From an uncultured Pelagibacteraceae bacterium (GTDB lineage: Bacteria; Pseudomonadota; Alphaproteobacteria; Pelagibacterales; Pelagibacteraceae): DNA of 52,147 nt. The translations under genes were made by a program, and so were the position numbers. Numbering within the stretch: the stretch's first letter is position 1; the number at the start of each line of letters is the position of its first letter. The notes below the pieces were generated by a model that worked only from the letters and a program-made list of their open reading frames with translations, was not told the origin of the DNA and ran no database searches. The stretch lies in contig CABZEV010000002.1 of assembly GCA_902524865.1 (NCBI GenBank), positions 1 through 52,147 of the forward strand, read 5' to 3'. This document shows, in pieces, positions 9,227 through 34,425 of the stretch.

Positions 9227-9260
9227 AGATTTGGCGACTATAATGTATAGTCGCCAATCT
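9227..9260 (+). promoter_or_regulatory. Intercistronic hairpin between SBP and permease
   Basis: AGATTTGGCGACTATA - ATG - TATAGTCGCCAATCT: near-perfect ~15-bp stem with one bulged T, ending 2 nt before the permease ATG (9263). Confidence 0.85.
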
Positions 9261-9262
9261 AT

Positions 9263-9955
9263 ATGGAACTTCTAACATTTGGAGATACTGGTTGGGGCGA
9301 TGAACTATTTCGTGCCACCCTGATGACTATAGCTGTTTCGATTACAGCAATGATTGTAGGTTTTCTTTTTGCATTAATTTTTACTCCATTAAAATTATCT
9401 AAAAATAGGTTCTTAAATTTTATTGCCAATTCATACACTACAATAATAAGAGGTGTTCCAGAATTATTAGTGATTTACCTTTTCTTTTTTGGTGGGACCG
9501 GTGCAGTTATGTTTGTAGCTTCAATATTTGGATATAATGAATATATTAAAATAAACGCTTTCATTACAGGAGCTTTTGCAATTGGAATTATTTCAGGCGC
9601 ATATTCGACAGAAGTTTTTAGAGGGGCGATCCAATCAATTGATAAAGGCCAGTTCGAGGCTGCTAATGTATTAGGTTTAAATAAATTTGGAAAATTTTTC
9701 AAAATTATTTTACCTCAAACATTAAGATTAGCTATTCCAAATCTAAGTAATGTTTGGCAGATAACTCTAAAAGACACTTCTCTAATTTCAGTTACAGGTT
9801 TAGTTGAAATTATGAGACAATCTTACATTGCTGCTGGATCAACGAGAGATCCATTATTCTTTTATTCATTTGCTGCAGTTTTGTATTTATTACTTACTTT
9901 TGTGAGTATGAAATTAATTAACAGATTAGAAGTAAAATATAATAGGGGGTACTAA
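9263..9955 (+). CDS. Polar amino acid ABC transporter permease (HisQ/ArtQ-type)
   Basis: Multiple TM segments; EAANVLGLNKFGKFFKIILPQTLRLAIPNLSN (EAA loop). Confidence 0.88.
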   Translation: MELLTFGDTGWGDELFRATLMTIAVSITAMIVGFLFALIFTPLKLSKNRFLNFIANSYTTIIRGVPELLVIYLFFFGGTGAVMFVASIFGYNEYIKINAFITGAFAIGIISGAYSTEVFRGAIQSIDKGQFEAANVLGLNKFGKFFKIILPQTLRLAIPNLSNVWQITLKDTSLISVTGLVEIMRQSYIAAGSTRDPLFFYSFAAVLYLLLTFVSMKLINRLEVKYNRGY

Positions 9956-10629
9956 TGGATCTTGAATTAATGATTAATAGTCTCCCAAAGTTACTAAATG
10001 CTGCTCTAATAACTTTAAAACTTCTCTCAGTTTCTCTAATAATTGGATTATTCATTGGCTTATTTTTTGCAATCCTAAGATTAAATAAAAATATATTTAT
10101 CAATAGATTTGCTTATGGATATTCCTATGTTTTTAGAGGTACACCACTTTTAGTACAGATATTCATTATTTATTTTGGATTAGGTCAGATTGAATATTTA
10201 AGATCGACAGTTTTATGGGTAATTTTAAAAGAACCATATTGGTGTGCAATAATTGCTTTTGCTCTAAACACGGGTGCTTACACTTCAGAGATAATGAGAT
10301 CAGCATTTCAAACCATTAAACCTGGAATAATAGAGGCAGGTAAAAGTTTGGGTATCTCAAACAAAGTAATCTTCTATAAAATTCAAATTCCTATCGCTAT
10401 TAGACAATCTTTACCAGCTTATGGAAATGAAATTATACTAATGATGAAAGGAACTTCTTTAGCAAGTACTGTCACAATTATGGATTTAACAGGTGTTGCA
10501 AAATATATAATTTCAACAACTTTTAAACCAATTGAGGTATTTATTGTTGCTGGTGGTATTTATCTATTTATGACCTTTATAATCCATAATATGATTAAGT
10601 TTTTAGAAAAGAAATACAGCTTTAATTAA
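9955..10629 (+). CDS. Polar amino acid ABC transporter permease (HisM/ArtM-type)
   Basis: FRGTPLLVQIFIIYFGLGQ; EAGKSLGISNKVIFYKIQIPIAIRQSLPAYGNE. Confidence 0.88.
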   Translation: MDLELMINSLPKLLNAALITLKLLSVSLIIGLFIGLFFAILRLNKNIFINRFAYGYSYVFRGTPLLVQIFIIYFGLGQIEYLRSTVLWVILKEPYWCAIIAFALNTGAYTSEIMRSAFQTIKPGIIEAGKSLGISNKVIFYKIQIPIAIRQSLPAYGNEIILMMKGTSLASTVTIMDLTGVAKYIISTTFKPIEVFIVAGGIYLFMTFIIHNMIKFLEKKYSFN

Positions 10630-11777
10630 AGCACAACTAAATCAATTTTTTGCTTACCAAGTCTTTGATTACCTTGCTCAGTGACTAAATAAGTTTCACC
10701 CAGGTTCATTGCTAATTGATTTTCTGAGTCCATTAAAATCATGTGCATAAAAAAAACATTTCCAGGCTCAATCACATATGGATTTTCGGTATATAACATT
10801 GGCCAATCCATCCAATTTGGAGCAAAAGTAGCACCTAAAGAATATCCACATGCATTCATTCTTGCTTTATTAAAACCAAGATCATCAAAAGTTTTTGCGT
10901 GAATATCAAAAACCTCTCCAATTTTATTTCCAGGTTTTAATTTATTTTCACAATTCTTTAACGCTTCAACACACGCCTCATGCATTTTATGATGTTTAGG
11001 ATCTGCTTTACTTATAGGAATTGTTCTAAACATTGCTGAATGGTAATGTCTATAAGTGCCAGCCCATTCTATAGTTAATTGATCTTGATCATTTAAAGTT
11101 TGTTTTTCTGATTGATAACGGCAAAGCAGAGCATTTTTGCCTGAACCAATAATAAATTCATTTGCAGGATAATCTCCGCCTCCTTCAAATATAACTTTAT
11201 TCATTTCAGCCAAAATTTTAGACTCATTCACACCCGCTTTGGCATATTTCCAAACTTCATCCAAAGCTTGATCAGCTAGCTCTGCAGCTTTTTTTACATA
11301 AACTATTTCCTCTTTGGATTTCACTACTCTTAACTTTGTTATTAAGTCTGATTTATCTTCAACACAGCAATAATTCTCTAAAGATTTATTGAGCTTCAAT
11401 GTATTTTTTCCAGTCAATCCATAAGCCTCATATTCAATTCCTAATTTTTTTCCTTTAAGATTTAGCTCGTCCAAAATAACTTTAAGATCATCGGTTGGGT
11501 TCGATCCATCTTTATCAACCCAAATTCTAATGTCTTTTATATTGGATGTATTTTGTGCCTGTCTTAAATCTGGAGCTCTAGTTAGTAATATCGTGTTTCC
11601 TTTTTTATCTAAAATTAATGTTTGAAAGAAAACATATCCAAATGTGTCATAACCAGTTAACCAATACATTGACTCTTGTCTAAACATTAATAAGGCTTCT
11701 ATGTTTTGATCTTTCATAGAATCTAAAACTTTAGATTTTCTAGTTCTAAATTCTTCCTGTGAAAAATGAAGTCCCAT
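10626..11777 (-). CDS. M24-family Xaa-Pro peptidase (PepQ/DoeA-like)
   Basis: Creatinase N-domain followed by pita-bread fold: KLRVVKSKEEIVYVKKAAELADQAL, ACGYSLGATFAPNWMD, EPGNVFFMHMI. Confidence 0.82.
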   Translation of the reverse strand: MGLHFSQEEFRTRKSKVLDSMKDQNIEALLMFRQESMYWLTGYDTFGYVFFQTLILDKKGNTILLTRAPDLRQAQNTSNIKDIRIWVDKDGSNPTDDLKVILDELNLKGKKLGIEYEAYGLTGKNTLKLNKSLENYCCVEDKSDLITKLRVVKSKEEIVYVKKAAELADQALDEVWKYAKAGVNESKILAEMNKVIFEGGGDYPANEFIIGSGKNALLCRYQSEKQTLNDQDQLTIEWAGTYRHYHSAMFRTIPISKADPKHHKMHEACVEALKNCENKLKPGNKIGEVFDIHAKTFDDLGFNKARMNACGYSLGATFAPNWMDWPMLYTENPYVIEPGNVFFMHMILMDSENQLAMNLGETYLVTEQGNQRLGKQKIDLVVL

Positions 11778-11784
11778 TAATGAT

Positions 11785-12174
11785 TTAATAACTGGTGTAT
11801 TCTTTTATTTCTTTGATAGCTGACCCAGTGTGATTGTTAATCTCTAATTTAATTTTTGCACGGTCATCATTAAGAAAATGCACATCTCTTGAAAGCTTAA
11901 TAAATTTTTCCCCAAAATCCTTTTCTTTCTCACATTGTCTTTTATCATCCTCGATAACCCAAAGTTTTGCATTAATTACTTTAAGAGATTGGTAAAGATT
12001 ATTTAGTTTTTGATCAGATTTGATATTTTCATCTAATTGATTTTTTAGAATAGAGTGTTCGTTATTAATAAATTTTAATTTTTCAGCATCTTTTATCTTT
12101 TCTTTTTTAATCTCTAAAATTGAAATTTTATCTAAAAGTTCTCCAATTGAAACTTCTACTATAATTTTATTCAT
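11785..12174 (-). CDS. Small hypothetical protein, DUF6165-like
   Basis: IVEVSIGELLDKISILEIKKEKI with charged helical remainder; divergent from a GT9 gene. Confidence 0.55.
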   Translation of the reverse strand: MNKIIVEVSIGELLDKISILEIKKEKIKDAEKLKFINNEHSILKNQLDENIKSDQKLNNLYQSLKVINAKLWVIEDDKRQCEKEKDFGEKFIKLSRDVHFLNDDRAKIKLEINNHTGSAIKEIKEYTSY

Positions 12175-12206
12175 AAAATTTAATACTATGTTATCTTGTT
12201 ATAATT

Positions 12207-13145
12207 ATGTCTAATATACTAATTATCAAACACGGATCTTTAGGAGATATAGCTCAAGCAAGTGGTGCTATTCAAGATATATCTGAAAATTACAAAAGTG
12301 ATAAAATTCATTTTCTTACCACAAGACCTTATATAGATTTATTTAATAAAAATCCTTTTGTACACAATGTTATTTTAGATAAAAGATTATCAAAAATTAA
12401 TTTGGTTTATCTTTATTTCTTGATGCGTGAATTAAAAAAGCATAATTTTGCACGAGTTTTTGATTTACAAAATTCTTCTAGGACAAACTTTTATAAAAAT
12501 ATTCTTTTTCCAAAAGCAACAAATGAGACATGGTCCAGCTCAATGACAACTTTGCCTAAAAATGAGATAAAAGAGAACTTTGATAAGAAATCGGTACTAG
12601 AGAGATTTGATTATCAATTAAAGATTTCAGGGTTAAGCACTCTTAATACTTTGAAACCTAACTTTAACTGGGCATCCTCGGATATTAGTGAAATTAAAAA
12701 ACAATATAATTTAAAAAAATATATTTTATTATTTCCTTTTTGCTCACCACATTTAACAATAAAAAAATGGCCATTTTATAATGACTTAACCAAACTATTT
12801 TTTAATAAGTTTGGTGAAGAATTTAAGGTAATAACTGCACCAGGTTCTCAAGAAATAAATGAAGCAAAAAAGATTAATGCAATTAGTATTTTAGACAATG
12901 GAAAAGCATTAGACATTTCTCAACTAACTTCACTGATCAAAGATAGCGTTTTTGTAATTGCTAATGATACTGGACCAGCACATATTGCTGCTCATGTTGG
13001 AGCTAAAGGTTTGAGTTTGTTTGGGAAACATACAACAGCGTATAAAGTAAATATTGAAACAGAAAATTTTAAATCAATTGAGGTCAGCGACCTTAAAAAT
13101 TTAAGCGCAGATAAAGTGTTTGAAAGATCTATACAAAGTATATGA
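12207..13145 (+). CDS. Glycosyltransferase family 9 (heptosyltransferase-like)
   Basis: ILIIKHGSLGDIAQASGAI, FVIANDTGPAHIAAHVGAKGLSLFG. Confidence 0.88.
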   Translation: MSNILIIKHGSLGDIAQASGAIQDISENYKSDKIHFLTTRPYIDLFNKNPFVHNVILDKRLSKINLVYLYFLMRELKKHNFARVFDLQNSSRTNFYKNILFPKATNETWSSSMTTLPKNEIKENFDKKSVLERFDYQLKISGLSTLNTLKPNFNWASSDISEIKKQYNLKKYILLFPFCSPHLTIKKWPFYNDLTKLFFNKFGEEFKVITAPGSQEINEAKKINAISILDNGKALDISQLTSLIKDSVFVIANDTGPAHIAAHVGAKGLSLFGKHTTAYKVNIETENFKSIEVSDLKNLSADKVFERSIQSI

Positions 13146-13148
13146 GTA

Positions 13149-14231
13149 CTAACTTTTTTTAAATTTTTTTAAAATAAAAGGTAAGATAATAACAATCGAA
13201 AGAATCCTTAAAAAATGATGATAACTAACAAATATTGGGTCAATATTGTAAGCGACACTTATTACAACCATTTCATGAATTCCACCGGGAGCAAAACTTA
13301 AAAATGTAGGTATAAAACTAAATCCTAGGAACTCTTGCAACACATAAGCAGTTAGCATCGCAACAATCACCAAAATAGCGCTAACAATTATTCCGTGGAA
13401 TATGAAAAAGAGTAATTCTTTTATTTTCAAACCATTAAGTCTACTTCCTAGAGCTGTTCCCAAGAATATAAAGGCTATATTAATGAAAGTGTTTGGAAAT
13501 CTTGAGTCTACTATTTCAAGAGTATAAAGAAGACCAGACAAAGCCATTGCCCCAATCAAGGTCGGTGAGGGTATATTTAGTTTTTTCAAGAAAATAGCAA
13601 ACATTACACAAACTACTATTAGAAACGTAATTTCAAAAAAATATTTTAAATCGTAAATATTTGTAAAATTATAACCAGTCATTTCTGAAAAACCAAAATT
13701 ATTTATAAATAGTATTGGTACAAAACTGACGATGAAAATCACTCGTGTTGCCTGTGGAATTAATACCCCTTTGTAATCACTTTTTTTCCCAAACTCTAAC
13801 AAAGCTGCAGAGATAGGAACAAATGCACCAGGTAATGCTGCAAGAATAGATACTAATTTTTCAAATTTACAAATTTTATAAAAATAATATCCAGCAAGTA
13901 TTGTACTAACGAGAGTACATATGAGCATGGCAAAAGATGAATAAATCCATAAATGAATTTTGTATAATAAAGTAACGTTTAGAGTTCCACCTAATATTAT
14001 TCCAACTATTAAAAATACAGGATTTAACAATTTGGTTGGAAAAATTATTTTATAATTTGTAAAAGCAAAGCAAAGATTAAAACCCAAAGAACCAAGCAGC
14101 CAGGGAAGGGGCAAACCTATTAATGTCCCAATATATCCACCGATTATACCTATAAATAAAGCCTTATAACTTTTTTTTAAATCTTTTAAAATTCCAGAAA
14201 ACTGGAGAAAAATATTTAATTTTAACATCAA
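13149..14231 (-). CDS. AbrB-family membrane protein
   Basis: Polytopic; two repeats with IGGYIGTLIGLPLPWLLGSL and LNIPSPTLIGAMALSGLLY; SFAPGGIHEMVVISVAYNIDPIFVSYHHFLRI. Confidence 0.75.
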   Translation of the reverse strand: MMLKLNIFLQFSGILKDLKKSYKALFIGIIGGYIGTLIGLPLPWLLGSLGFNLCFAFTNYKIIFPTKLLNPVFLIVGIILGGTLNVTLLYKIHLWIYSSFAMLICTLVSTILAGYYFYKICKFEKLVSILAALPGAFVPISAALLEFGKKSDYKGVLIPQATRVIFIVSFVPILFINNFGFSEMTGYNFTNIYDLKYFFEITFLIVVCVMFAIFLKKLNIPSPTLIGAMALSGLLYTLEIVDSRFPNTFINIAFIFLGTALGSRLNGLKIKELLFFIFHGIIVSAILVIVAMLTAYVLQEFLGFSFIPTFLSFAPGGIHEMVVISVAYNIDPIFVSYHHFLRILSIVIILPFILKKFKKS

Positions 14232-14367
14232 TAATTAGTGTTTATATTAAATAAGTCAAAAAAATAGACTTTATATTATTAACATATCTTTTTGTGATAT
14301 TGCTCATTGACTTAAGTTTCTATTTAAGGTTATTTTTTAAATATATTAATTAATCAGAGGGATAAAA

Positions 14368-15345
14368 ATGATAAAAAAAATACAAAGTATTTTCTTATGC
14401 TTCGCGTTAGTAGTTACTTCTTTTGTCGGTATGGGACAAGTTGCAACTATTGCAATTGCTGCTGATTTCCCATCAAAACCAATTGAGGTAGTAACTCATG
14501 CTGGGTTAGGTGGAGGAACTGATACAACAGCTAGAATGTTGTTAATTCGAACAAGAAAAAATCTTAAAAATAATGCTTACATAACTCCAAAAAAAGGAGA
14601 TAGTGGAAATAAAGCTATGGCTTACGTTAAATCTAAGCCAAAAGATGGTCATACAGTTTTAGCTATAACACCCACTCATTTATTTAGAATGGCGAGAGGT
14701 GAAGCTGCATTAACAATCGATGATTTCGTTGGAGTTGCTAGAACTACAGTTGACCCGATTGTAATCTTCGTCAATGCAAAAAGTCCTTACAAAACAATTG
14801 AGGACTTAATTAAAGCTGGAAACAAGAAACCTATTAAATATGGTGGAACTAATGTTGGAAGTGTTGACCATATATCTGGTCTAATTTTTGCAAGAGAGGC
14901 AAAAACTAAAATTGCTTTTGTACCTTTTGAAGGAGGTGGAGCAATTATGACGAGCTTAGTAGGAAATCAAATTGAAGCAGCAGGTTTGAACTTAGATGAA
15001 GGTAAAGATCAACTTGATGCTGGAGAATTAAGAGTGCTAGCTGTTATGGCAGATCAGAGGATGGCCGCTCTTCCTGATACTCCAACTTTGAAAGAAAAAG
15101 GTATCAATGCATCGTTTGCAACGGTTAGAGGAGTTGTTGTGTTAAAAGGTACACCTCAAAGTGCAATTGATAAACTTGAAAAAGGTTTTCTTAAAGCGAT
15201 GAAGCATCCTGTATATCAAAACTATTTACAGGGTGCAGGTTTAGACTCATCTAGCGTTGCTGGCTCAAAAGCTTGGGATAGCGAAATTAAATCAATTTAC
15301 AAAGAAGCAAGAGCTGCTTTAGTAAGTTTAGGTTTAGCTAAATAA
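14368..15345 (+). CDS. Tripartite tricarboxylate transporter substrate-binding protein (TctC/Bug family)
   Basis: Signal peptide; FPSKPIEVVTHAGLGGGTDTTARML; Bug-family pattern to the C-terminus. Confidence 0.88.
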   Translation: MIKKIQSIFLCFALVVTSFVGMGQVATIAIAADFPSKPIEVVTHAGLGGGTDTTARMLLIRTRKNLKNNAYITPKKGDSGNKAMAYVKSKPKDGHTVLAITPTHLFRMARGEAALTIDDFVGVARTTVDPIVIFVNAKSPYKTIEDLIKAGNKKPIKYGGTNVGSVDHISGLIFAREAKTKIAFVPFEGGGAIMTSLVGNQIEAAGLNLDEGKDQLDAGELRVLAVMADQRMAALPDTPTLKEKGINASFATVRGVVVLKGTPQSAIDKLEKGFLKAMKHPVYQNYLQGAGLDSSSVAGSKAWDSEIKSIYKEARAALVSLGLAK

Positions 15346-15357
15346 TTAAATTTATAT

Positions 15358-15383
15358 TCAACGGGAGCAAAAACTCCCGTTGA
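15358..15383 (+). promoter_or_regulatory. Intercistronic hairpin between TctC and TctB
   Basis: TCAACGGGAG - CAAAAA - CTCCCGTTGA, perfect 10-bp stem; no strong U-tract follows. Confidence 0.85.
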
Positions 15384-15392
15384 TACTTTCTC

Positions 15393-15857
15393 ATGATAAA
15401 AGATATTAAAATCTTAAGTGTTATAATATTTATTTCGTTAATTCTTTTTGGTTATACATTCACATTCGATGAAGTACCTGAAATTTTGGCCCAAGGTATG
15501 CAACCCACAATGATGCCAAGATTAATTTTTTCACTTATAATTTTTTTGTGTTTTTTTCAAATTTACCAAAACAAATCACTTAAATCGGAAAATAAAGATA
15601 TCATTAAAAGAAATGCATTTATTACTTTTGCATATACATTGTTTATAGTTTTAATTGCAGATAAATTAGGTTTTTTAATATCTGTATTTCTTTTTACTTT
15701 AATAACTCCTATTCTTTGGCAAAGAAAAGATTATGTAAAAATTACTTTATATTCTTTTTCTATGACAATATTTGTATTTGTTTTTTTTACTTTGATTCTT
15801 CAATTAAAGTTTCCACAAGGAATCCTCGAAGATTTTATAATTAGAAATTTTTATTAA
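15393..15857 (+). CDS. Tripartite tricarboxylate transporter small membrane subunit TctB
   Basis: Four predicted TM segments in TctC-TctB-TctA order. Confidence 0.75.
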   Translation: MIKDIKILSVIIFISLILFGYTFTFDEVPEILAQGMQPTMMPRLIFSLIIFLCFFQIYQNKSLKSENKDIIKRNAFITFAYTLFIVLIADKLGFLISVFLFTLITPILWQRKDYVKITLYSFSMTIFVFVFFTLILQLKFPQGILEDFIIRNFY

Positions 15858-17338
15858 TGGACATATTTTCTAACATTTCATTAATATTAGATGCAAAAAC
15901 GTTAGCTTTAATTTTGGGTTCCACTATTACTGGAGTTCTTATTGGGGCTTTACCTGGTCTAAGTTCTGGAATGGCAATTGCTTTATTATTACCTTTCACA
16001 ATTTATCTCGAACCAAGTCAAGCAATTGCAGCAATGGCAGCTTTATATTGTGGTGGCACATTTGGAGGTTCAATCACAGCAATACTTATTAATGCGCCAG
16101 GAGCACCACCTGCGGCAGCTACAGCTTTTGATGGTTTTCCTATGGCTCAAAAAGGACAAGCTGGAAAAGCATTAGGCATGGCAGCAGTATCAAGTGTCGT
16201 TGGCGGTGTTATATCTTTAATGGTTTTAATTACATTTGCTCCAACACTTGCTCGTATTGCTTATAAATTTGGACCACCAGAATATTTTGCATTAGCTATA
16301 TTTGGCTTGTCAATGCTTGCCTCAATAAGCTCTAAATCCCCAGTCAAAAATTTAATTGGTGGTCTGATAGGATTATTTGTTGCAACTATTGGTGTTCATT
16401 TAACCACAGGAATTTCTAGATTTACCTTTGGAGTTGATGAGTTGTTTGAAGGAATAAGTTTTGTTCCAGTTTTAATTGGATTATTTGCCATGTCAGAAAT
16501 ACTAGTGCAAGCATCTAAAAGTGAGCTGTTATTGGAGAGGATAAAATTTTCGGCAATTAAGTTACCTTCGATTAGTGAATTTAAAAGTTGCGGGAAATCA
16601 ATTCTAAGATCATCAGGTATTGGAACTTTTATTGGTATTTTACCAGCCGAAGGTGGAACAGTTAGTGCAATGATTGGTTACAATGAAGCTAGAAGATGGT
16701 CCAAGAATAAAGAAAATTTTGGAAAAGGGGAAATTGAAGGAGTGGCTGCACCTGAGTCAGCAAACAATGCTGCAACAGGTGGAGCAATGATACCAACACT
16801 GGCTCTTGGAATTCCTGGATCTGCGACAACTGCTGTAATACTTGGTGGATTCCAAATTCATGGATTAAGAGCAGGACCATATCTATTTGAGCAACAACCG
16901 GACCTTTTATACACAATTTTTTATGGGATGCTTTTAGCTAATTTTATTTTTTTAGTTTTTGGACTTATGGGTGCAAAAATTTTTTCTAGAATTTCTTTAA
17001 TACCCAGAGGTTATTTGTGGCCATCTGTTTTTGTTTTTTGTTTAGTAGGATCATATGGCTTATCCCAATCAATGGTGGATGTTTACATTATGTTAATTTC
17101 AGGTGTAATGGGTTTCTTTTTAAGACGATATGGTTTTTCTCCCGCGCCAATTATAATGGGTATTGTTTTAGGAGAATTAGTTGAAAATTCTTTAGCTCAA
17201 TCTATAATAATTTTTGATCAAAATATTTTTATGTTTTTCACAAGACCGATATGTTTATTATTTTTTGGATTAACTTTTTTAAGTTTATTTTACAGACCAA
17301 TAAAAAATTTGATAATGAAAGGAAAAAAAGATGAGTAA
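15857..17338 (+). CDS. Tripartite tricarboxylate transporter large permease TctA
   Basis: GVLIGALPGLSSGMAIALLLPFT, YCGGTFGGSITAILINAPGAPPAAATAFDGFPMAQKGQAGKALG. Confidence 0.95.
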   Translation: MDIFSNISLILDAKTLALILGSTITGVLIGALPGLSSGMAIALLLPFTIYLEPSQAIAAMAALYCGGTFGGSITAILINAPGAPPAAATAFDGFPMAQKGQAGKALGMAAVSSVVGGVISLMVLITFAPTLARIAYKFGPPEYFALAIFGLSMLASISSKSPVKNLIGGLIGLFVATIGVHLTTGISRFTFGVDELFEGISFVPVLIGLFAMSEILVQASKSELLLERIKFSAIKLPSISEFKSCGKSILRSSGIGTFIGILPAEGGTVSAMIGYNEARRWSKNKENFGKGEIEGVAAPESANNAATGGAMIPTLALGIPGSATTAVILGGFQIHGLRAGPYLFEQQPDLLYTIFYGMLLANFIFLVFGLMGAKIFSRISLIPRGYLWPSVFVFCLVGSYGLSQSMVDVYIMLISGVMGFFLRRYGFSPAPIIMGIVLGELVENSLAQSIIIFDQNIFMFFTRPICLLFFGLTFLSLFYRPIKNLIMKGKKDE

Positions 17339-18855: not shown

Positions 18856-19836
18856 ATGATAAATATAAAAAAAATACTTTCAGTATTATTTTCAGCAATT
18901 CTTTTAATCTCAGCGACAGCTACTAATTCAATCGCCATTGACAAAATACATTTTGTAATTGGCGGTGGTGCTGGGGGTGGTTGGGATGGAACTGCTAGAG
19001 GGACTGGAGAAGCATTAACAAAAGCTGGTTTTTTAAAAAGTGCATCATTTGAAAATATGTCAGGTGGTGGTGGAGGCAAAGCACTTGCTTATATGATTAA
19101 TACTAAGCCTGAAAATACTGTCTTAGTTCAATCTACTCCATTAGTTTTAAGATCAATTACAAGACACAAAGGTTACGTAAGTGGCAGTGGTACTTTGTCT
19201 TATAAAGATGTTGTACCGATTGCTGGTGTAATAGGTGATTATGGTGCTATAGCAGTTGCTAAAAACTCACCTTATAAAAACTTTGCAGATGTTGTAAAAG
19301 CTTACAAAGCAGATCCTAATTCAATAAAAATGGCTGGTGGTTCTGTTAGAGGAAGTATGGATCATTTAATTGGTGCTTTAGCTTTTCAAGCTGCTGGAGC
19401 AAATCCGAACGACGTAGCTTATATTCCTTATGATGCAGGTGGAAAAGCATTAGCTGGACTTTTATCTGGGGAAACTCAAATTATCTCTACAGGTTTAGGT
19501 GAATTAATGGGTGCAAGAGACCAAGTAAGAATAATTGGTATCACTGCTCCTGACAGAGTATCTGATGCACCAGATGCACCAACACTTAAAGAACAAGGCT
19601 ATGATGTACAATTCGTTAATTGGAGAGGATTTTTTGGTCCTCCAGGTATGAGCAACAAGGATAAAAAAGCTATTGCTAAAATGTTAGGAGATGTACAAAA
19701 AACTCCAGAGTGGGAGACAGTTAGAGCAAGAAACGCATGGGTGAATATATACAATCCTGATAAAAAGTTTGTTAAATTCCTTAAAACACAAACTAAAGAA
19801 ATGACTGATCTAATGAAAAAATTAGGGGTTATTTAA
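18856..19836 (+). CDS. Tripartite tricarboxylate transporter substrate-binding protein (TctC), second copy
   Basis: Signal peptide; KIHFVIGGGAGGGWDGTARGTGEAL; Bug-like fold pattern. Confidence 0.87.
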   Translation: MINIKKILSVLFSAILLISATATNSIAIDKIHFVIGGGAGGGWDGTARGTGEALTKAGFLKSASFENMSGGGGGKALAYMINTKPENTVLVQSTPLVLRSITRHKGYVSGSGTLSYKDVVPIAGVIGDYGAIAVAKNSPYKNFADVVKAYKADPNSIKMAGGSVRGSMDHLIGALAFQAAGANPNDVAYIPYDAGGKALAGLLSGETQIISTGLGELMGARDQVRIIGITAPDRVSDAPDAPTLKEQGYDVQFVNWRGFFGPPGMSNKDKKAIAKMLGDVQKTPEWETVRARNAWVNIYNPDKKFVKFLKTQTKEMTDLMKKLGVI

Positions 19837-19857
19837 TCTTATAAAGATTAATAAATT

Positions 19858-19904
19858 AAAGAGCAGTGAATATAAATACTACAAAAATTATATCACTGCT
19901 CTTT
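19858..19904 (+). terminator. Terminator-like hairpin overlapping the 5' end of downstream tctB
   Basis: AAAGAGCAGTGA (19858-19869) pairs with TCACTGCTCTTT (19893-19904), extendable with TATAA/TTATA inside, followed by T run; predicted GTG start (19866) lies in the stem. Confidence 0.75.
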
Positions 19905-20336
19905 TTTATTTTTTCAGCATTTTATTTGTACACAGCTTTTCAAATACAAGTTTTTGCTTTCGATGAAAATGCTCCATTTAATGCAAGAACTTTTCCAATT
20001 TATTTAGGTTATGCAGGTTTATTTTTTTCTGGATTAAAATTAATTCTACCAGATCCAGGCACTATTTGGGTAGACTATAAAAATCTGCAATATAAAAAAA
20101 CTTTATTACTTATAATTGTTTCTATTATATATGGAGCTACAATTTTAAAATTTGGATATTTTTTAACTACTTCTTTATTTTTATTTACTTCTTATTATTT
20201 TTTGGGTGAAAGAAGATGGACTTTAATGTTTTTTTTATCTTTTCCATTTGTTGCAGTATTTATGTATTTTATTCATGGTGTTCTTGAAATTTATTTGAGG
20301 GATCCTTTTTTACAGGCAATTGGAGTAATGGGATGA
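19866..20336 (+). CDS. TctB-like small membrane subunit, second copy
   Basis: Four TM segments, position between TctC and TctA; GTG start uncertain. Confidence 0.72.
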   Translation: MNINTTKIISLLFFIFSAFYLYTAFQIQVFAFDENAPFNARTFPIYLGYAGLFFSGLKLILPDPGTIWVDYKNLQYKKTLLLIIVSIIYGATILKFGYFLTTSLFLFTSYYFLGERRWTLMFFLSFPFVAVFMYFIHGVLEIYLRDPFLQAIGVMG

Positions 20337-24001: not shown

Positions 24002-24009
24002 TTATTTAC

Positions 24010-25407: not shown

Positions 25408-25435
25408 TTTATATTATGTTAAAGTATTATTTTTT

Positions 25436-28393
25436 ATGAAATTATTTTTTAAAACGTTAATAATTTTTATATTTGCCACACAATCATTTGCGTCCTCTCA
25501 ACAAATAGGAGTCATTGGCTTTGTGATCGGTAACGTTTTTAATCAAAAAGGAGAGGAATTAAAAGTAGGTGACCCAATATATTTTGGTGACACCATTAGT
25601 GCCGGTGCTGGAGCAAAATCACAACTTTTATTTATAGACGAAACAGTTATGACAATTGGCTCAGATACTAAATTAACAATTGATGATTTTATTTTCGATC
25701 CCTCAGCAAATGATGGTAAACTTTTAGCTTCAATTATAGCCGGAAGTGTAAAAATTCTTTCAGGAAAAATTAGTGAAATAAATCCAGCCAATTTAGAGGT
25801 AAAAATTCCTTCGGGTACAATTGGTTCTAGAGGAACTGAATTTAAAGCCTCAGTTGATCCATTGACCACTCAAAGTAAAATTTTACTTGTAGGACCTGGA
25901 CCAAATAATTCATTAAATTTAAGAGCAGGAGCTGTTGAGGTATCAAATGAATTAGGAACAGTTACTTTGGACCAACCATATTTATTCACTGAGTTAACAG
26001 AAAACAGAGCGCCTACAGATGCAGTGGTTATTCCTCAAGCTGAATTAAAAATTTTTCAAAAATTAGAAGTTGAGCCTGAAAGTACAATTGCTCAATTATC
26101 TGGTGACGAAACGAGTACTGATGAAGAAAATTCTGAAACAGCTGAAGATAATACTGAGGAAGAAAATGTTACAATAGTTGAAAATGATAATTTACCAGAG
26201 GATGCAACAGAGGAATTAATTTTAACTGATGAGGCTGAAATAAATTCAATAATTAAAGATGAAATTTTTACTGATGACCAAAGTGAGGGTGACTTAGTTG
26301 TTGAAACACTAGTTGCAGCATTAGCAAAAGATGATGGTGGAATTACTGCTCAAATGTTAGGAAAATCTTTCTTAAGTAGTGGAAATGATATTAGACCAGA
26401 TTTAGATTTACCTGAGGGTATGATTTTAAACTCAGAGGAAGCCAACACTTTTATAGAAGAAAAAGCAATGCAGGAAATAGAAAAAGTAATGTTAGTGAGT
26501 GCGAGAGTGAAGAATGTAGAATATGTCCCCACTAAATTTAATCAGTTAAGTGGTTTTGATGACATTAGAGTTCCAATTTTAAATGATGAAACAGGTGATG
26601 TTGTATTTCTTGATATGGGTAATATAGATTTTAAACCCCAAGTTTTACCAGCCAATTTTAATGAAGATCAACCTCAATTACTACCTAGAATACCAGAACA
26701 GTTATTTCTTAAAGGTGGTGATGAAAACGTATTTATAGACTTTGATGAAGGTCAATTTGTTGAAACAGTATTTGACCCTGAAATCGAAATACTGGATCAA
26801 AAATATCAAGCTGCCGTTAATGCAGGTGCTACTCAAGATGAAATAGAGGAAATATTTATTGAAATGGATGAAATCATGCAAAAAGCTGATGAGTCTAAGG
26901 TTACTATAAATATGAAGAGTATGGAAAATGAAATTATACCTGCAGGTTTAAATATGGATTTTTTAACTGCAGAGGAGTTTGTAAAGGAACAAGATAGTTT
27001 TTTATTTAGTACAGATGTTTATACTGAGTCTTGGGAACAGGCAGAAGAAGGAAAAGTAGCTATTTTTAAAATAGATGGTTCAGTTGATTATGTAGATCAA
27101 GAAGACGCAAATACTGCATGGGAAGAAGCTGATAAAGCTTATGAACAAGAGTTTGCCGAAGCTTTTCCTGAGATTTATCAAGCAGAAAAAAAAGCAGAAG
27201 CTTTAATGGCAAAAGCAGATGCCCAGGCAGAAGAATTGTTTTTAAATATTGATCAATTAATTCAATCAGGGGCTTCAGATGAAGAAATAGAGGAAGCATT
27301 TATAAAAGTTGATGCTGAGTTAAGTCAAGCTTATTTCGAAGTTGATGCAGCATTTGAGGAAGTAATGCTGGTTGAAATGAAAACCGATGTATTAATGATG
27401 GCAGAAGAAGCTGCAAGTTTAAAGTTCGAAGTAAATAATGCTAAAAAGACTGGTATGCTCAACGGTAAAGAATTGTCAGAAGCAGAGATAAAAGAGTTTG
27501 AAGAAGAAGTAAAATTTTTAGAATTGGCGGTTGAGGATACTAAAGAGAACTATCTAGAAGAGGTAAAATTTGTAAATCAAGTATTAGACGTTAGACAAGC
27601 CGATATGCAAGTAGAATTTGAAATTCCAGAAATAGATTTTCAATTAGCTTCATTAGACATTGAACAAAATTTACAGATACAAGAAGTACAAATTCAAGAA
27701 GAACAAGGATTGCAACAAGAATTTCAAGCAATAGAAATGTTCTATATTGAGCCAGAAGCTTTCCTTGAAGAGCCAGAACGTCAGATTGATGCTGTACAAC
27801 AACAAAATACAATTAGCGCTGGTACCACTACATATGCAGATTTAAATACAAAATCAAGTGGAACAGATACTTATAATGGATCAAGAACAAATTTAACTAT
27901 TACTTCAGCTGCAAGTAATGCATCTGTAGCAGCATCAGTTGGTACGGTTGTTGGGGGGTTTTCACCAGTGCACGTAATAGATTATTCCAACAGACAAATA
28001 AAACAACAAGTAATAATTGATGTCATGGCTTTAGGGCGAAACACAATGGGTAGAATATCTTTAATAGAGAAGACCCATAGTTATAGCGCAAGTGATACTG
28101 GAAACGTTACACCAAGTGCAGCATTTACAGTGGGACAAATGGGTCTTGGCATTGAAGTTAATTCTAGTTTGACTTCAACTGTTTCGAATGATGTTACAGC
28201 AGGATCCACATATCTTGAAAATGAAGAACTTCCAAGTTTAACAAATTATTTAATTACAGTTTCATCAGAGGCAACCAATACAACTGGTGTTGCAAATTCT
28301 ATACAAACAACCGTGACAGTCGAATCTGATGGTGGTGTAGCTGGCAACACTAATAAAGCTTCAGGCACAGACAGTGGGGCAACAAAACAATAG
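25436..28393 (+). CDS. Large acidic FecR-domain protein, 985 aa, putative exported/surface protein
   Basis: Signal peptide; FecR-like domain (IGVIGFVIGNVFNQKGEELKVGDPIYFGDTISAGAGAKSQLLFIDETVMTIGSDTKLTI); long D/E-rich region; Ser/Thr/Gly-rich beta-type C-terminus. Confidence 0.75.
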   Translation: MKLFFKTLIIFIFATQSFASSQQIGVIGFVIGNVFNQKGEELKVGDPIYFGDTISAGAGAKSQLLFIDETVMTIGSDTKLTIDDFIFDPSANDGKLLASIIAGSVKILSGKISEINPANLEVKIPSGTIGSRGTEFKASVDPLTTQSKILLVGPGPNNSLNLRAGAVEVSNELGTVTLDQPYLFTELTENRAPTDAVVIPQAELKIFQKLEVEPESTIAQLSGDETSTDEENSETAEDNTEEENVTIVENDNLPEDATEELILTDEAEINSIIKDEIFTDDQSEGDLVVETLVAALAKDDGGITAQMLGKSFLSSGNDIRPDLDLPEGMILNSEEANTFIEEKAMQEIEKVMLVSARVKNVEYVPTKFNQLSGFDDIRVPILNDETGDVVFLDMGNIDFKPQVLPANFNEDQPQLLPRIPEQLFLKGGDENVFIDFDEGQFVETVFDPEIEILDQKYQAAVNAGATQDEIEEIFIEMDEIMQKADESKVTINMKSMENEIIPAGLNMDFLTAEEFVKEQDSFLFSTDVYTESWEQAEEGKVAIFKIDGSVDYVDQEDANTAWEEADKAYEQEFAEAFPEIYQAEKKAEALMAKADAQAEELFLNIDQLIQSGASDEEIEEAFIKVDAELSQAYFEVDAAFEEVMLVEMKTDVLMMAEEAASLKFEVNNAKKTGMLNGKELSEAEIKEFEEEVKFLELAVEDTKENYLEEVKFVNQVLDVRQADMQVEFEIPEIDFQLASLDIEQNLQIQEVQIQEEQGLQQEFQAIEMFYIEPEAFLEEPERQIDAVQQQNTISAGTTTYADLNTKSSGTDTYNGSRTNLTITSAASNASVAASVGTVVGGFSPVHVIDYSNRQIKQQVIIDVMALGRNTMGRISLIEKTHSYSASDTGNVTPSAAFTVGQMGLGIEVNSSLTSTVSNDVTAGSTYLENEELPSLTNYLITVSSEATNTTGVANSIQTTVTVESDGGVAGNTNKASGTDSGATKQ

Positions 28394-28404
28394 AATCAAT
28401 ATAT

Positions 28405-28845
28405 ATGCCAACTTACACAGTCACAAATTCAAACTTTAGTTTTTCCTCAAGACAACAAAAAAAATTAGCAGAGGGTATAACCAAAGTTCATAATGTAGTA
28501 ACAGGGGCTAATACTTATTTTGCTCAAGTAATTTTTAATAAAACTAAAACAGACAATCATTTTATGGGAGGAAAGAAAGTTAAGGAGCCTTCATTATTTC
28601 TACTTGGTCAAATTAGAGCTGGACGATCAAAAGAGGTAAAAGATAAATTAATCTCAGATTTAAAAGATGTATTAGTTAAAAATTCAAAATTAGATGAAAC
28701 CCAAGTTTGGGTTTATATTAATGATCTTCCCCCATCTCAAATGATTGAATATGGTGCAGTTTTACCAGAATCTGGTAAAGAGAGCGAATGGTTTAATAAC
28801 CTATCTAGTAAATTAAAAGATAAACTTTCAAAGATTGAGAGATGA
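28405..28845 (+). CDS. Tautomerase family protein (4-oxalocrotonate tautomerase-like)
   Basis: MPTYTVTNSNFSFSSRQQKKLAEGITKVHNVVTGA, small size. Confidence 0.65.
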   Translation: MPTYTVTNSNFSFSSRQQKKLAEGITKVHNVVTGANTYFAQVIFNKTKTDNHFMGGKKVKEPSLFLLGQIRAGRSKEVKDKLISDLKDVLVKNSKLDETQVWVYINDLPPSQMIEYGAVLPESGKESEWFNNLSSKLKDKLSKIER

Positions 28846-28859
28846 AATTATACAAAAAC

Positions 28860-29459
28860 TTAAGGAACTAACCAGGTATCCTTATTATTTTCTAAATCAA
28901 ATTTAGCTCTTCGATGACCTTTGGCAGCAAGATATAACCATTCAATACATTTTATTTTACATTTTATAACCGCAAAGTTTTTGTAACCTTCCTCGCTTTG
29001 TTCCATTGTATAATCAAAATCTTCTAATTTAGATATCATACCAGATGTTGGACTTTCTGATGCAGTTCCTGGAGGACTATCAGTTAAATAACATCTTCTA
29101 CTTATATGTTGGGTTTTTTTCCAAGATTCTTCTGTTGTAAAATTTTGATTATTAACTTCACACTCAACTTTTACTCTTAATTGTATCTTTTCTTCTTTAT
29201 CGTAGAAAACTAGAGAAGCATTATTATTTTTCATAAGAATATCTACTTTTGGCGATCTTAAATCAGTATGGAATTGCAATAGATTAATCAATCTATCTGA
29301 TTTTCTAAGAACAACAATTCTACCATCAACCTCATCTTGATGAGCACAAATAAAAACGGGAATTCTAAAAGGAGAACCTCTATTTGTCACAGCATCATCC
29401 AGCATTGACCAATACTTATTTTTTATTTCCTCGAAATTTTCATAGTATGCCGGTTGCAT
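28860..29459 (-). CDS. Pyridoxamine 5'-phosphate oxidase-like FMN-binding protein
   Basis: Split-barrel pattern: VDGRIVVLRKSDR..LQFHTDLRSPKVDIL; IKCIEWLYLAAKGHRRAKFDLEN. Confidence 0.78.
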   Translation of the reverse strand: MQPAYYENFEEIKNKYWSMLDDAVTNRGSPFRIPVFICAHQDEVDGRIVVLRKSDRLINLLQFHTDLRSPKVDILMKNNNASLVFYDKEEKIQLRVKVECEVNNQNFTTEESWKKTQHISRRCYLTDSPPGTASESPTSGMISKLEDFDYTMEQSEEGYKNFAVIKCKIKCIEWLYLAAKGHRRAKFDLENNKDTWLVP

Positions 29460-29462
29460 ACA

Positions 29463-30332
29463 TTACTTTCTAAATCTTTTAATTAAACTCGATGTATCCC
29501 AACGATTACCACCTAATCCTTGTACTTCTTCATAGTATTTATCGACAAGTTCCGTAACAGGTAATAAAGAACCATTATTTTTAGCTTCATCCATTGCAAT
29601 TTTTAAATCTTTTCTCATCCAATCAACTGCAAAACCAAAGTCAAACTTATCATCTATCATTGTCTTGTACCTATTTTCCATTTGCCATGATTGAGCTGCA
29701 CCTTTCGAAATAACTTCAATTACATCCTCCATATTTAGTCCAGCCTTCATACCAAAGTTAATAGCTTCAGATAGTCCTTGTACTAAACCAGCAATACAAA
29801 TTTGATTAACCATTTTGGCAAGTTGTCCATTGCCTGCATCACCAAGTAGTTTCATTTTTTTACTGTAGCAATCAATTTTATCTTTTGCTTTATCAAAATC
29901 TGCTTTATCACCTCCAACCATCACTGTTAGCGCGCCATTCTCTGCTCCAGCTTGTCCACCAGATACAGGAGCATCTAATGCACCAAATCCATTTTTCTTT
30001 GCATAATCATATATCTCTCTAGCAATTTTTGCTGAGGCTGTAGTGTTATCAATATAGACTGCGCCCTTTTTAATTGTTTTGAAAGCTCCTTTGTCACCAA
30101 AAGTTACTTCTTTTAAATCATTATCATTACCAACACAGGTAAAAATATATTCAGCATCTTTAGCTGCATCCGCTGGAGTTTCAGCCATTTTACCTTTGTA
30201 TTCTCCAATCCATTTTTCTGCTTTTGATTTTGTACGATTAAAAACAGTTACATTGTGACCACCTTTTGATATATATCCTGCCATTGGATAGCCCATTACA
30301 CCAAGACCTATGAAAGCAACATTACAGCTCAT
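29463..30332 (-). CDS. NAD(P)-dependent oxidoreductase, 3-hydroxyisobutyrate dehydrogenase family
   Basis: VAFIGLGVMGYPMAGYISKGGHNVTVFNRT, DAPVSGGQAGAENGALTVMVGG. Confidence 0.9.
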   Translation of the reverse strand: MSCNVAFIGLGVMGYPMAGYISKGGHNVTVFNRTKSKAEKWIGEYKGKMAETPADAAKDAEYIFTCVGNDNDLKEVTFGDKGAFKTIKKGAVYIDNTTASAKIAREIYDYAKKNGFGALDAPVSGGQAGAENGALTVMVGGDKADFDKAKDKIDCYSKKMKLLGDAGNGQLAKMVNQICIAGLVQGLSEAINFGMKAGLNMEDVIEVISKGAAQSWQMENRYKTMIDDKFDFGFAVDWMRKDLKIAMDEAKNNGSLLPVTELVDKYYEEVQGLGGNRWDTSSLIKRFRK

Positions 30333-30340
30333 AATTTTTT

Positions 30341-31552
30341 ATGTTTAAAAGTTTAAGTATAAAAGTAATTATATTTGGGTTTATCTTTACATTTTTTTCT
30401 AGTTTTGGACAGAGTTTTTTTCTTGGTTTATTTAATTCAAGTATTAGAGAAACACTTTCAATAACTCATGGACAATTTGGCTCAATTTATGCTTCGGCAA
30501 CATTATTGAGTAGTTTTCTTTTAATTTGGGTTGGTAAAAAAATTGACGACATAAATATTTTTAGATTTGCTTTATATGTAACTCTTTTGTTAGCTTTTTC
30601 TTGTTTTTTCTTTTCAAAAATTTCATCAATAATTTTTTTATTTATTGCTGTTTTTCTAATGAGGTTTTCCGGTCAAGGATTAATGTCTCATACTGCAACG
30701 ACAACGATTTCAAGATTTTTTACTAAATCTAGAGGCAAAGCTCTAAGTATTGGTTGGTTTGGATTATCAACCGCAGAATTTATTTTACCAGTTTTAATTG
30801 TCTATTTACTTACTTTAAATGCATGGCAAAACATTTGGTTATCTATTTCTATATTTATACTATTATTTTTACCATTTATTTCTTTTGCATTAATTAAAAA
30901 TTTGAACTTTGACTCGAGAGAAGAAGTAAATGATCAAAATTTTGTTGAAAAAGAAATTAAAAATTGGACACGAATTGAGGTTTTAAAAGATTATAGATTT
31001 TATATAGTTTGTTTGAATATGTTAGCAATGCCTTGGATTGCTACTGGTGTATTTGTTTATCAGTCATATATAACAGAGTCAAAAGAGTGGGGTGAATTTG
31101 TCATAGCACAATCATTTATGGCTTACTCTGTCTTATCAGTGATTACTTTGTTGGGCTCTGGTTTTTTAATCGATAAATTTACAAGTAGAAAATTATTGAT
31201 CTTTATGAATATACCTTTGTTGATTTCAATGTTTGTTTTGTTTTATTTAGATATTTCTATTTCTGCTTTTGTATTTCTTGGTTTAATTGGAATTTCAAAT
31301 GGGCTTGCCAATGTCTTGGGGTCCTCTACTTGGGCTGAGATTTATGGCGTAAAATACATTGGATCAATTAAAGCATTAACAACAGCATTGATGGTATTTT
31401 CTACTGCTTTTGGCACAGCTTTATTTGGATTGTTAATTGACAAAGGCTTTACTATTGAGCAAATAGCAGTGATTTCATTTGTATATATTTTCTTATCTTT
31501 AATAGCTCTATTCGTGGTTAGAAACAGGTTAAATCCTGAATATATTAAATAG
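30341..31552 (+). CDS. MFS transporter
   Basis: About 12 hydrophobic segments; RFSGQGLMSHTATTTISRFFTKSRGKALSIGWFGLS. Confidence 0.82.
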   Translation: MFKSLSIKVIIFGFIFTFFSSFGQSFFLGLFNSSIRETLSITHGQFGSIYASATLLSSFLLIWVGKKIDDINIFRFALYVTLLLAFSCFFFSKISSIIFLFIAVFLMRFSGQGLMSHTATTTISRFFTKSRGKALSIGWFGLSTAEFILPVLIVYLLTLNAWQNIWLSISIFILLFLPFISFALIKNLNFDSREEVNDQNFVEKEIKNWTRIEVLKDYRFYIVCLNMLAMPWIATGVFVYQSYITESKEWGEFVIAQSFMAYSVLSVITLLGSGFLIDKFTSRKLLIFMNIPLLISMFVLFYLDISISAFVFLGLIGISNGLANVLGSSTWAEIYGVKYIGSIKALTTALMVFSTAFGTALFGLLIDKGFTIEQIAVISFVYIFLSLIALFVVRNRLNPEYIK

Positions 31553-31590
31553 TCCTTGCTTTTTTTAATTACAGCTTATAGATAACCGGC

Positions 31591-32118
31591 ATGGCAAGAG
31601 TTACAGTTGAAGATTGTATTGATAAAGTAGATAGTCCATATGAATTAGTTTTGGTTGCAAAAGAAAGAGCAACTCAACTTAATACTGGAATAGAACCAAC
31701 TTTAGATCGTGATAACGATAAAAATACAGTTATTGCATTAAGAGAAATAGCTGAAGAAAATATCAAAGTAGACGATCTAACTGAAAGCGCTGTCTATAAA
31801 TTAAGAAAACATGTAGAGCAAGTTGACGATGGCGCTGAGGCTGATGAGGATGTTGGTGATGATTTTGAAAGTTTATATAAAGGTGAAATCTCGAAAAGTG
31901 GAACTCCTATTCTACCATCTAAAAGAGCACGAAAAGCTCCAGAAAAAATTCAAGTTTCTAAAGATGATTTAGCAGAATTGTCTGAGACAGCTAAGCCAGA
32001 CGTGCCAGAAGCTCCTGTATCCGAAGATGCTGAAGCCGAACTGGGAGACGTCTCTTTAGATCAAGTGTCTGAAAGTGAAGATCAAGCAGCAGACGACACA
32101 GACACTTCAAATTCTTAA
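31591..32118 (+). CDS. rpoZ: DNA-directed RNA polymerase omega subunit with extended acidic C-terminus
   Basis: [30 protein letters not shown]...[13 protein letters not shown]; about 75-aa D/E-rich tail. Confidence 0.93.
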
Positions 32119-32124
32119 AATTTA

Positions 32125-33270
32125 TTAATTACAAAATTCCTTTATAATTTTTTGTCGATGTTCATCTAAATCAGGTATGTCACCTCTTATTTTTTCATCT
32201 TTATAAGATGACATTTTTATTGGGTTACCAGCCAGTTTAAAATCTCCAACAACTTTGTGAAACGCTTTAACAATCATGTTTCTAGACTCTATTTGTGGGT
32301 TTTCAACAGCCTCTTTAATATTGAAAATTGGTCCACATGGAATTTTATCTTTTTCCATTTCACTAACCCAATCACTTGTTTTTTTACTTAATAATTTTTC
32401 CTCTAAAATTTTTTTTAGTTCATCCATATTTTTTGCTCTAGATGAGTTATCTGAAAATTTTGGATCTTTACTTATCTCTGGAATTTTAAGAAGGTTACAA
32501 AGTTTTTCAAAAAGTTTATCATTTCCAGCTGCAATGATTATGTAATTATCTTGTGTCTTAAAGGCTTCAAAGGGTGCAATTGATGGATGTCTTGATCCCA
32601 TTGGTTTTGGAATTTCATTTTTAGACAGATAACGTGCTATAGCGTTTTCTAATATAGCTATTTGACAATCAAGCATAGAAACATCTATGAACATTCCTTT
32701 TCCAGTTTTTTGTCTATCATATAAAGCTGCATTAATACCTATCGCAGTGAAAAGCCCAGCAGTAATATCACCAATTGAGGTTCCAACTCGAGTAGGTTCA
32801 GAGTTTGGTTGACCAGTAACACTCATTAAACCACCCATGCCTTGAACCACCATGTCATAAGCAGGCAATTCTTTAAGTGGACCAGTTTGACCAAAGCCTG
32901 ACGCTGAAGCATAAATTAGTTTTGGATATTTCTTATTAACATCTTTCCAGCCAAACCCCCATTTTTCTAAAGTTCCGGGTTTAAAATTTTCAACTAGAAT
33001 ATCTGCTTTAGATAAAAGTTTTTCAAAAATTTTTTTATCTTCTTCATTTTTTAAATTAAGAGCAATACTTTCTTTTCCTCTATTAAGAGACATGAAATAA
33101 GCTGAGTAATCTTTTATAAATGGTCCAAATTTTCTTGAGTCATCTCCAATTTCAGGCGCCTCAACTTTAATTACTCTAGCTCCTAAATCAGATAATATCA
33201 TAGTACAATAAGGACCAACTAATACCCTTGTTAGATCAATTACTAGTAAGTTTTTTAAAGGTCCATCCAT
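32125..33270 (-). CDS. Class III (CaiB/BaiF family) CoA-transferase
   Basis: MDGPLKNLLVIDLTRVLVGPYCTMILSDLGARVIKVEAPEIGDDSRKFGP; start moved to ATG 33270 from the ORF-track start. Confidence 0.9.
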   Translation of the reverse strand: MDGPLKNLLVIDLTRVLVGPYCTMILSDLGARVIKVEAPEIGDDSRKFGPFIKDYSAYFMSLNRGKESIALNLKNEEDKKIFEKLLSKADILVENFKPGTLEKWGFGWKDVNKKYPKLIYASASGFGQTGPLKELPAYDMVVQGMGGLMSVTGQPNSEPTRVGTSIGDITAGLFTAIGINAALYDRQKTGKGMFIDVSMLDCQIAILENAIARYLSKNEIPKPMGSRHPSIAPFEAFKTQDNYIIIAAGNDKLFEKLCNLLKIPEISKDPKFSDNSSRAKNMDELKKILEEKLLSKKTSDWVSEMEKDKIPCGPIFNIKEAVENPQIESRNMIVKAFHKVVGDFKLAGNPIKMSSYKDEKIRGDIPDLDEHRQKIIKEFCN

Positions 33271-33364
33271 ATTACTTAGTCTTAATTGAGTTTTTGTCGA
33301 CTTGACTCTTATTAATAAGTTCATTTTAATTGAATTATTAAAAATAACAATAGAGGGAAAAATA

Positions 33365-34375
33365 ATGTTAAAAAGAATATCTTTATGTTTAAGTGCATTA
33401 GTTTTTGTTTTTACTACTATTGGTTCTGCTTATGCGGTTACGCTAAAAGCAAGTCACCAATGGCCTGGTACTCCAAGAGCTGATGGATCTTTTGATCCAC
33501 GTCATGAAATGGTTCAAATCATTGCTGACGAGGTTAAAAAAGCAAATGTTGGAATAGATATCAGAATTTATCCAGCTAAATCATTATACAAACCAAAAGA
33601 ACAGTGGAAACCTATGACAACTGGTCAGTTAGATATTTCTGCTTTTCCTTTAGCATACGCATCTAAGTTTCATCCAGAATTTGATGCAACATTAATGCCA
33701 GGAACAGTAAAAAATCATGATCACGCATTGAGATTTAATAAAGGTCCAATGATGACTGAAATTAAAAAAATCATTAATGATGCTGGTGTTGTAGTTTTAT
33801 CTGATGCTTGGTTAGGCGGTGGTTTTGCTTCAAAATCAAAATGTATTAAAAATCCTAGCGACGCAAAAGGACAAGTGATGAGAGCTGCTGGTAAAGCATT
33901 TAACCAAATGTTAGAGGCTGCAGGAGCAGGTATACAGAGTATGCCATCATCTGAAATTTATACTGGTTTACAAACCGGTGTTTTAACAGGTGCTAATACT
34001 AGTTCAGGAAGTTTTGTGAGTTATAAAATTTATGAACAAGTTTCATGCGCAACACCTCCAGGAAAATTTGGATTATGGTTTATGTATGAGCCAATTCTGA
34101 TGTCTAAAAAGTCTTTTGATGCACTAAATTCTAAGCAGCAAAAAGCTTTGATGAAAGCAGGAAAGGTTGCTGAAAAATACATGACAGCTCAAGTTGAAAA
34201 CTTAGATAAAAAGTTTGAAGAAGCTTATAAAGCTGCAGGTGTTAAATTAGTATACATGAACGAAAAAGATCATGCTGCGTGGGTAGAGATTGCAAAAAAA
34301 TCATCTCACAAAGCATTTGCTGATAAAGTTCCAGGTGGCGATAAGCTAATGGAAATGGCTTTAGCAGTTAAATAA
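33365..34375 (+). CDS. TRAP transporter substrate-binding protein (DctP)
   Basis: Start at ATG 33365 with signal peptide; LKASHQWPGTPRADGSFDPRHEMVQIIADEVKKA, DctP-type pattern; upstream of DctQ and DctM. Confidence 0.9.
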   Translation: MLKRISLCLSALVFVFTTIGSAYAVTLKASHQWPGTPRADGSFDPRHEMVQIIADEVKKANVGIDIRIYPAKSLYKPKEQWKPMTTGQLDISAFPLAYASKFHPEFDATLMPGTVKNHDHALRFNKGPMMTEIKKIINDAGVVVLSDAWLGGGFASKSKCIKNPSDAKGQVMRAAGKAFNQMLEAAGAGIQSMPSSEIYTGLQTGVLTGANTSSGSFVSYKIYEQVSCATPPGKFGLWFMYEPILMSKKSFDALNSKQQKALMKAGKVAEKYMTAQVENLDKKFEEAYKAAGVKLVYMNEKDHAAWVEIAKKSSHKAFADKVPGGDKLMEMALAVK

Positions 34376-34389
34376 AATAATATATAAAG

Positions 34390-34425
34390 AACCCCTATTT
34401 ATTCTTATTAAATAGGGGTTTTTTT
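34390..34425 (+). terminator. Intrinsic-terminator-like hairpin between dctP and dctQ
   Basis: AACCCCTATTTA - TTCTTAT - TAAATAGGGGTT perfect 12-bp stem followed by TTTTT, directly abutting the dctQ ATG at 34426. Confidence 0.9.

Follow-up and report, generated by a model that had tools for sequence, protein, structure and literature searches.

The window, i.e., the whole stretch of 52,147 nucleotides that was analysed (G+C = 31%), carries four importer operons of three transporter families: one ABC, one TRAP and two TTT (TTT-1 and TTT-2). In each of them a hairpin separates the gene of the substrate-binding protein (SBP) from the following membrane gene. Is this recurrence a rule of the genome and of its relatives, and what would such hairpins do? 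The window belongs to a SAR11 genome of the Pelagibacteraceae (0.78 Mb, 49 contigs, 67.6% complete). The ABC SBP is 98% identical to its counterpart in uncultured Pelagibacteraceae AG-916-F23, and its best 80 named matches all belong to Pelagibacteraceae, Pelagibacterales or Ca. Pelagibacter.

Hairpins between SBP and membrane genes in the window

The preliminary description of the window had reported a strong stem-loop at all four SBP-permease junctions. The four hairpins are indeed at these places and Pfam confirms the flanking genes (Table 1), i.e., SBP_bac_3 then BPD_transp_1, TctC-TctB-TctA twice, and DctP-DctQ-DctM; no SBP beyond the four was found among the window genes scanned with Pfam. 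The word «strong» is also justified: the minimum free energies (MFE) range from -17 to -20 kcal/mol, with shuffle z-scores of -5.3 to -7.6, and when the intergenic stretches are folded alone 0/200 dinucleotide shuffles match the MFE of any of the four. With a sliding 44-nt fold along the window, the SBP junctions reach -16.2 to -20.0 while the 30 other co-directional junctions are at -13.0 or weaker.

Table 1. Genes and hairpins at the four SBP-membrane gene junctions (window coordinates; MFE in kcal/mol).
Feature	Position	Strand	Support
ABC importer SBP gene (SBP_bac_3)	8388..9218	+	Pfam PF00497, E 2e-37
ABC junction hairpin, without U-tract	9226..9260 (about)	+	MFE -20.0, z -7.6
ABC permease gene (BPD_transp_1)	9263..9955	+	Pfam PF00528
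TTT-1 SBP gene (TctC)	14368..15345	+	Pfam PF03401
TTT-1 junction hairpin, weak U content 3' of stem	15358..15383	+	MFE -17.1, z -6.2
TTT-1 small membrane gene (TctB)	15393..15857	+	Pfam PF07331
TTT-2 SBP gene (TctC)	18856..19836	+	Pfam PF03401
TTT-2 junction hairpin with U6 tract	19857..19907 (about)	+	MFE -19.2, z -6.4
TTT-2 small membrane gene (TctB)	19866..20336	+	Pfam PF07331
TRAP SBP gene (DctP)	33302..34375	+	Pfam PF03480
TRAP junction hairpin, terminator-like, U7 tract reaching the dctQ start codon	34386..34424	+	MFE -19.5, z -5.3
TRAP small membrane gene (DctQ)	34426..34920	+	Pfam PF04290

A U-tract follows the stem in only two of the four hairpins (TTT-2 and TRAP); 4 T are found among the 8 bases after the TTT-1 stem. 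The last G-C pair of the ABC hairpin lies about 8 nt upstream of the permease ATG. At TTT-2 the DNA has a dual use, in the window as in the orthologues L047-L060: the GTG start of tctB is located within the terminator-like stem, and the 3' arm and the U-tract encode the first membrane helix of TctB.

None of the four junctions has an Rfam match at gathering score, the only such match in the window being a tRNA at 514-587. Besides the junction hairpins, the strong non-coding structures of the window comprise the tRNA-Met and, at 385-430 upstream of its gene, nested palindromes made of GGTCCA/TGGACC repeats. On the minus strand, at 39590-39625, the 172-nt gap that precedes the gene at 39763 contains a hairpin (GGGTGGTAGAGGGAGACTGAAGCCACCC) with eight T after it. 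This hairpin has no Rfam match at gathering score and may be a terminator or a small RNA.

Frequency of the hairpins at gene ends of the genus

The sample comprised the loci around the SBPs of six Pfam families in 40-odd congeneric genomes, together with background stretches. Each gene end was scored by its best 44-nt fold at most 85 nt from the stop, with an arbitrary threshold of -12 kcal/mol. The background corresponds to sampled stretches, the genes were delimited by a simple ORF caller, and the genomes are related to one another; upstream proteins were clustered at 50% identity to lessen pseudo-replication.

Among SBP genes with a co-directional next gene, 189/191 reach the -12 kcal/mol threshold (median -18.8), vs. 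33/696 (4.7%) of the other co-directional junctions (median -6.1). The proportion is 3.6% for the 193 non-SBP junctions matched for gap length (20-150 nt) and 6.9% for 189 convergent non-SBP gene ends. When counted by orthologue cluster, the hairpin is present in 28/30 SBP clusters vs. 22/342 others (p = 3e-26). For the genome of the window itself, as far as sampled, the values are 9/10 and 9/130, respectively (p = 1e-8). The enrichment over other junctions is thus strong, genome-wide and genus-wide. Two families were searched afterwards: PstS has the hairpin in 27/28 cases (the remaining one being at -11.5) and NMT1 in 30/30. AapJ-like SBPs have it in 3/3. The weak junctions of the genus sample are two, of the DctP/BP6 type.

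Conservation of the pairing

The ABC stem is present in 81/81 junctions (the window and the 80 named orthologues). Over its 23 distinct sequences 94.8% of the cells pair, two-sided changes occur in 5/10 pairs, and the covariation score is 0.247 vs. 0.147 in shuffles (0/500); if the partners are slid by 1-3 columns, pairing falls to 28-55%. The orthologues of TTT-1, whose SBPs are about 90% identical, have wholly different stems (TCAACGGGAG.., AATGGGGGTT.., TAACGGGGGA..), every one of them fully paired. At TTT-2 the stem containing the tctB GTG start is retained across the orthologue junctions listed, and at TRAP the stem is retained in the orthologues, with changes. A convergent architecture had been put forward rather than a copied repeat, and this view is borne out: the stem sequences are unrelated, which rules out a copied repeat, and among orthologues the stems covary or are rebuilt with pairing kept.

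Two structural classes

For 174 distinct junctions, the median values are 12 bp for the stem, 5 for its G-C pairs and 4 nt for the loop. The 8 bases after the last G-C pair contain at least 6 T in 53% of these junctions and at most 3 T in 27%. The class (U-tract or none) is mostly fixed per orthologue group. TRAP and TTT-2 are of the U-tract type, the latter as seen by eye since the automatic count for the TTT-2 group is wrong (the stem-finder chose an upstream A+T stem), and ABC and TTT-1 are of the other type. The hallmark of intrinsic terminators, i.e., a G+C-rich stem followed by a U-tract, is present at TRAP and TTT-2 and absent at ABC. The structure of a decay barrier, i.e., a stable stem without U-tract at the 3' end of a message, fits ABC and TTT-1. 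A consensus terminator scan taken alone was discarded as uninformative at the base composition of the window (10 found vs. 7.8 expected).

Proposed mechanism and alternatives

The hairpins probably act at the 3' end of the SBP message and thereby set the SBP:permease ratio. The gene order and the short gaps fit a co-transcription of the SBP and membrane genes, in which RNA polymerase would reach the SBP gene first. Where a U-tract is present (TRAP, TTT-2 and many orthologue groups), a share of the transcripts would terminate at the stem-loop. Where it is absent (ABC, TTT-1), RNA polymerase would read through, and the longer transcript would be cleaved downstream, then trimmed back to the stem, which would stop 3'-5' exonucleases. 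By either route, stable messages carrying the SBP alone would be numerous and permease messages scarce. An experimental precedent with this outcome exists for each class, so that the SBP:permease ratio is most likely raised by a mixed mechanism, in which transcripts terminate in part and/or are protected at their 3' ends. From the features observed, i.e., presence, strength, near-universality, specificity, conserved pairing and two classes, we infer that termination or protection occurs in vivo, with a certain efficiency and with consequences for the protein ratio.

The hairpins might act mainly on translation, by hiding the ribosome entry site and the start codon of the membrane gene, which would lower permease synthesis. 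The tctB GTG start lies inside the TTT-2 stem in the window and in the orthologues, the ABC stem stops about 8 nt before the ATG, and many last G-C pairs are 5-15 nt upstream of the next start. However, the start region is predicted to be only slightly less accessible than at gap-matched junctions (0.41 vs. 0.44), many stems are 20-45 nt upstream of the start, and hairpins are also present without any downstream permease. A translational block is unlikely as the main effect and was set aside on account of the small accessibility shift and of the operon-end hairpins; as a local effect, occlusion is plausible at TTT-2 and may perhaps occur at ABC, as judged from the position of the stems. Ordinary operon-end terminators, with permeases driven by their own promoters within or after the hairpin, would agree with the classical U-tracts of half of the hairpins and with the same structure at SBPs that end operons. 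This explanation is nevertheless quite improbable: with gaps of 29-90 nt in most cases and a stem near the start codon, there is scant room for a promoter, the U-less class is expected to terminate poorly, and such hairpins are found at only 6.9% of the other operon ends.

Protein-binding or ligand-sensing elements (an operator palindrome or a riboswitch-like attenuator) exerting a conditional control on the permease are very improbable, even though the ABC stem GGCGACTAT..ATAGTCGCC is conserved past mere pairing in most orthologues. The stems are indeed unrelated across operons and replaced in the TTT-1 orthologues, they are single with no alternative fold, G-U wobbles and two-sided changes suit RNA pairing, and an Rfam match at gathering score is lacking at the junctions. 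Chance has a negligible probability. A+T-rich intergenic DNA does yield palindromes, among which a reader could have picked four; many weak ones occur in the window, and the terminator scan hardly exceeds its expectation. Such an origin is refuted by the shuffles (z of -5.3 to -7.6), by the gap-matched controls (99% vs. 4%) and by the covariation.

Hairpins outside SBP-permease junctions and the iron SBP

The pattern had been described as one of SBP-permease junctions. It is found there, but it extends further and has an exception. SBPs located at operon ends have the hairpin in 7/7 cases. Strong intergenic positives outside SBPs are those of proteorhodopsin, isocitrate lyase, rubrerythrin and a 2-hydroxyacid (formate-type) dehydrogenase. 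For proteorhodopsin, a U-tract hairpin is present in 29/29 readable relatives (L440-L469) and after the copy of the window genome (G000:C1 near 103026, minus strand), i.e., 30/30. Since operon-end SBPs and proteorhodopsin have hairpins too, the common factor would be an abundant upstream message, and the hairpins seem to mark the 3' ends of abundant messages. The products of the hairpin-bearing genes are abundant in SAR11, according to published statements and general knowledge.

The exception is the Fbp/Sfu-like iron SBP, for which an intergenic hairpin is absent in the 15 genomes read; a hairpin is thus not needed for every SBP. In the window genome a 56-aa Cys-containing ORF (MEEKKKFISEVDLNKSSKACSPCSLEC...; L361, 1324-1494, minus strand) lies directly 3' of the iron SBP, and an alike coding sequence is found in most relatives (L362-L375). 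A few 3' regions of iron SBPs fold moderately, inside apparent coding sequence.

Comparison with known systems

The preliminary description had likened the hairpins to the stabilisers of malE-malF. The comparison is apt, as a stable hairpin is located between SBP and permease in both cases (PMC5927463), but about half of the hairpins, TTT-2 and TRAP included, look like intrinsic terminators. In E. coli malE-malF, the SBP message is stabilised and the hairpins have no U-tract, as at ABC and TTT-1 here. In every E. coli ABC operon found to decay differentially, the SBP is the gene stabilised, and when the first gene of a differentially decaying operon is stabilised most 3' ends are just past a hairpin without U-tract (PMC5927463). 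Two differences must be mentioned: (i) a handful of ABC operons is concerned in E. coli vs. nearly every ABC, TRAP and TTT SBP here; (ii) the E. coli hairpins are often within the downstream coding sequence, whereas here they are mostly in the gap and about half have U-tracts.

Cellulolytic Clostridia also have a single stem-loop directly after the 5' SBP gene, whose stem is long and whose U content varies (PMC9045158). These internal terminators halt 21-96% of the transcripts, and a lower U content together with long stems leads to an intermediate efficiency (PMC9045158). Partial termination was demonstrated by test in Clostridia while function is predicted from sequence here. Moreover, Clostridia are Gram-positive and only ABC importers are concerned, whereas the present case is a SAR11 alphaproteobacterium in which TRAP and TTT importers are included and hairpins are scarce elsewhere. 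The stem-loop placed directly 3' of the SBP and 5' of the membrane gene is found in 4/4 cases in the window and in 189/191 in the genus. The rhtB element of Ca. Pelagibacter ubique (PMC2704228) is from the same clade and is a single hairpin as well; about 50% of its representatives have a tract of 6-9 U after it, and it is sometimes near livK/livM (PMC2704228). It was described as one motif near rhtB/proC, with no SBP rule, and the likeness drawn here is based on that description.

Taxonomic range and significance

In 25 distant Alphaproteobacteria, 6 DctP 3' flanks have a shuffle z ≤ -3, vs. 20/20 in the genus. A comparison of raw energies in G+C-rich genomes was dropped since it is biased by composition. 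Elsewhere in the order (chiefly a sister family), 5/13 Peripla_BP_6 flanks pass. In this sister family (L339-L356) several Peripla_BP_6 genes have gaps of 0-13 nt and no hairpin, unlike the genus of the window, and some of these hairpin-less genes form tandem SBP pairs. The few DctP flanks that pass in distant Alphaproteobacteria indicate that near-universality is a SAR11 trait, i.e., one of this genus and perhaps of its family.

Devices of this kind are already known from malE-malF and, in Clostridia, as internal terminators. That SAR11 uses them almost universally after SBP genes, for TRAP and TTT importers as well, and rarely elsewhere in the genome appears to be undescribed: surveys of SAR11 RNA motifs list a related single hairpin but no SBP rule (PMC2704228, PMC6429828), and neither an SBP-hairpin rule in SAR11 nor a genetic means was found in the searchable literature, most subscription journals being outside it.

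SAR11 is predicted to keep a high ratio of binding protein to transporter (PMC8168909). The hairpin could, tentatively, be a near-exclusive and hard-wired dosage device, with an independently evolved stem for nearly every SBP and for proteorhodopsin and a fixed class per transporter, that provides this high ratio without a regulator. If this dosage reading is true, it would be a regulator-free route to the ratio predicted by oligotroph theory. The hairpins are a concrete sequence-level candidate for the genetic means of the high ratio, and the hairpin-less iron SBP offers a built-in contrast. With their help, one might also recognise from sequence the SAR11 genes intended for high abundance.
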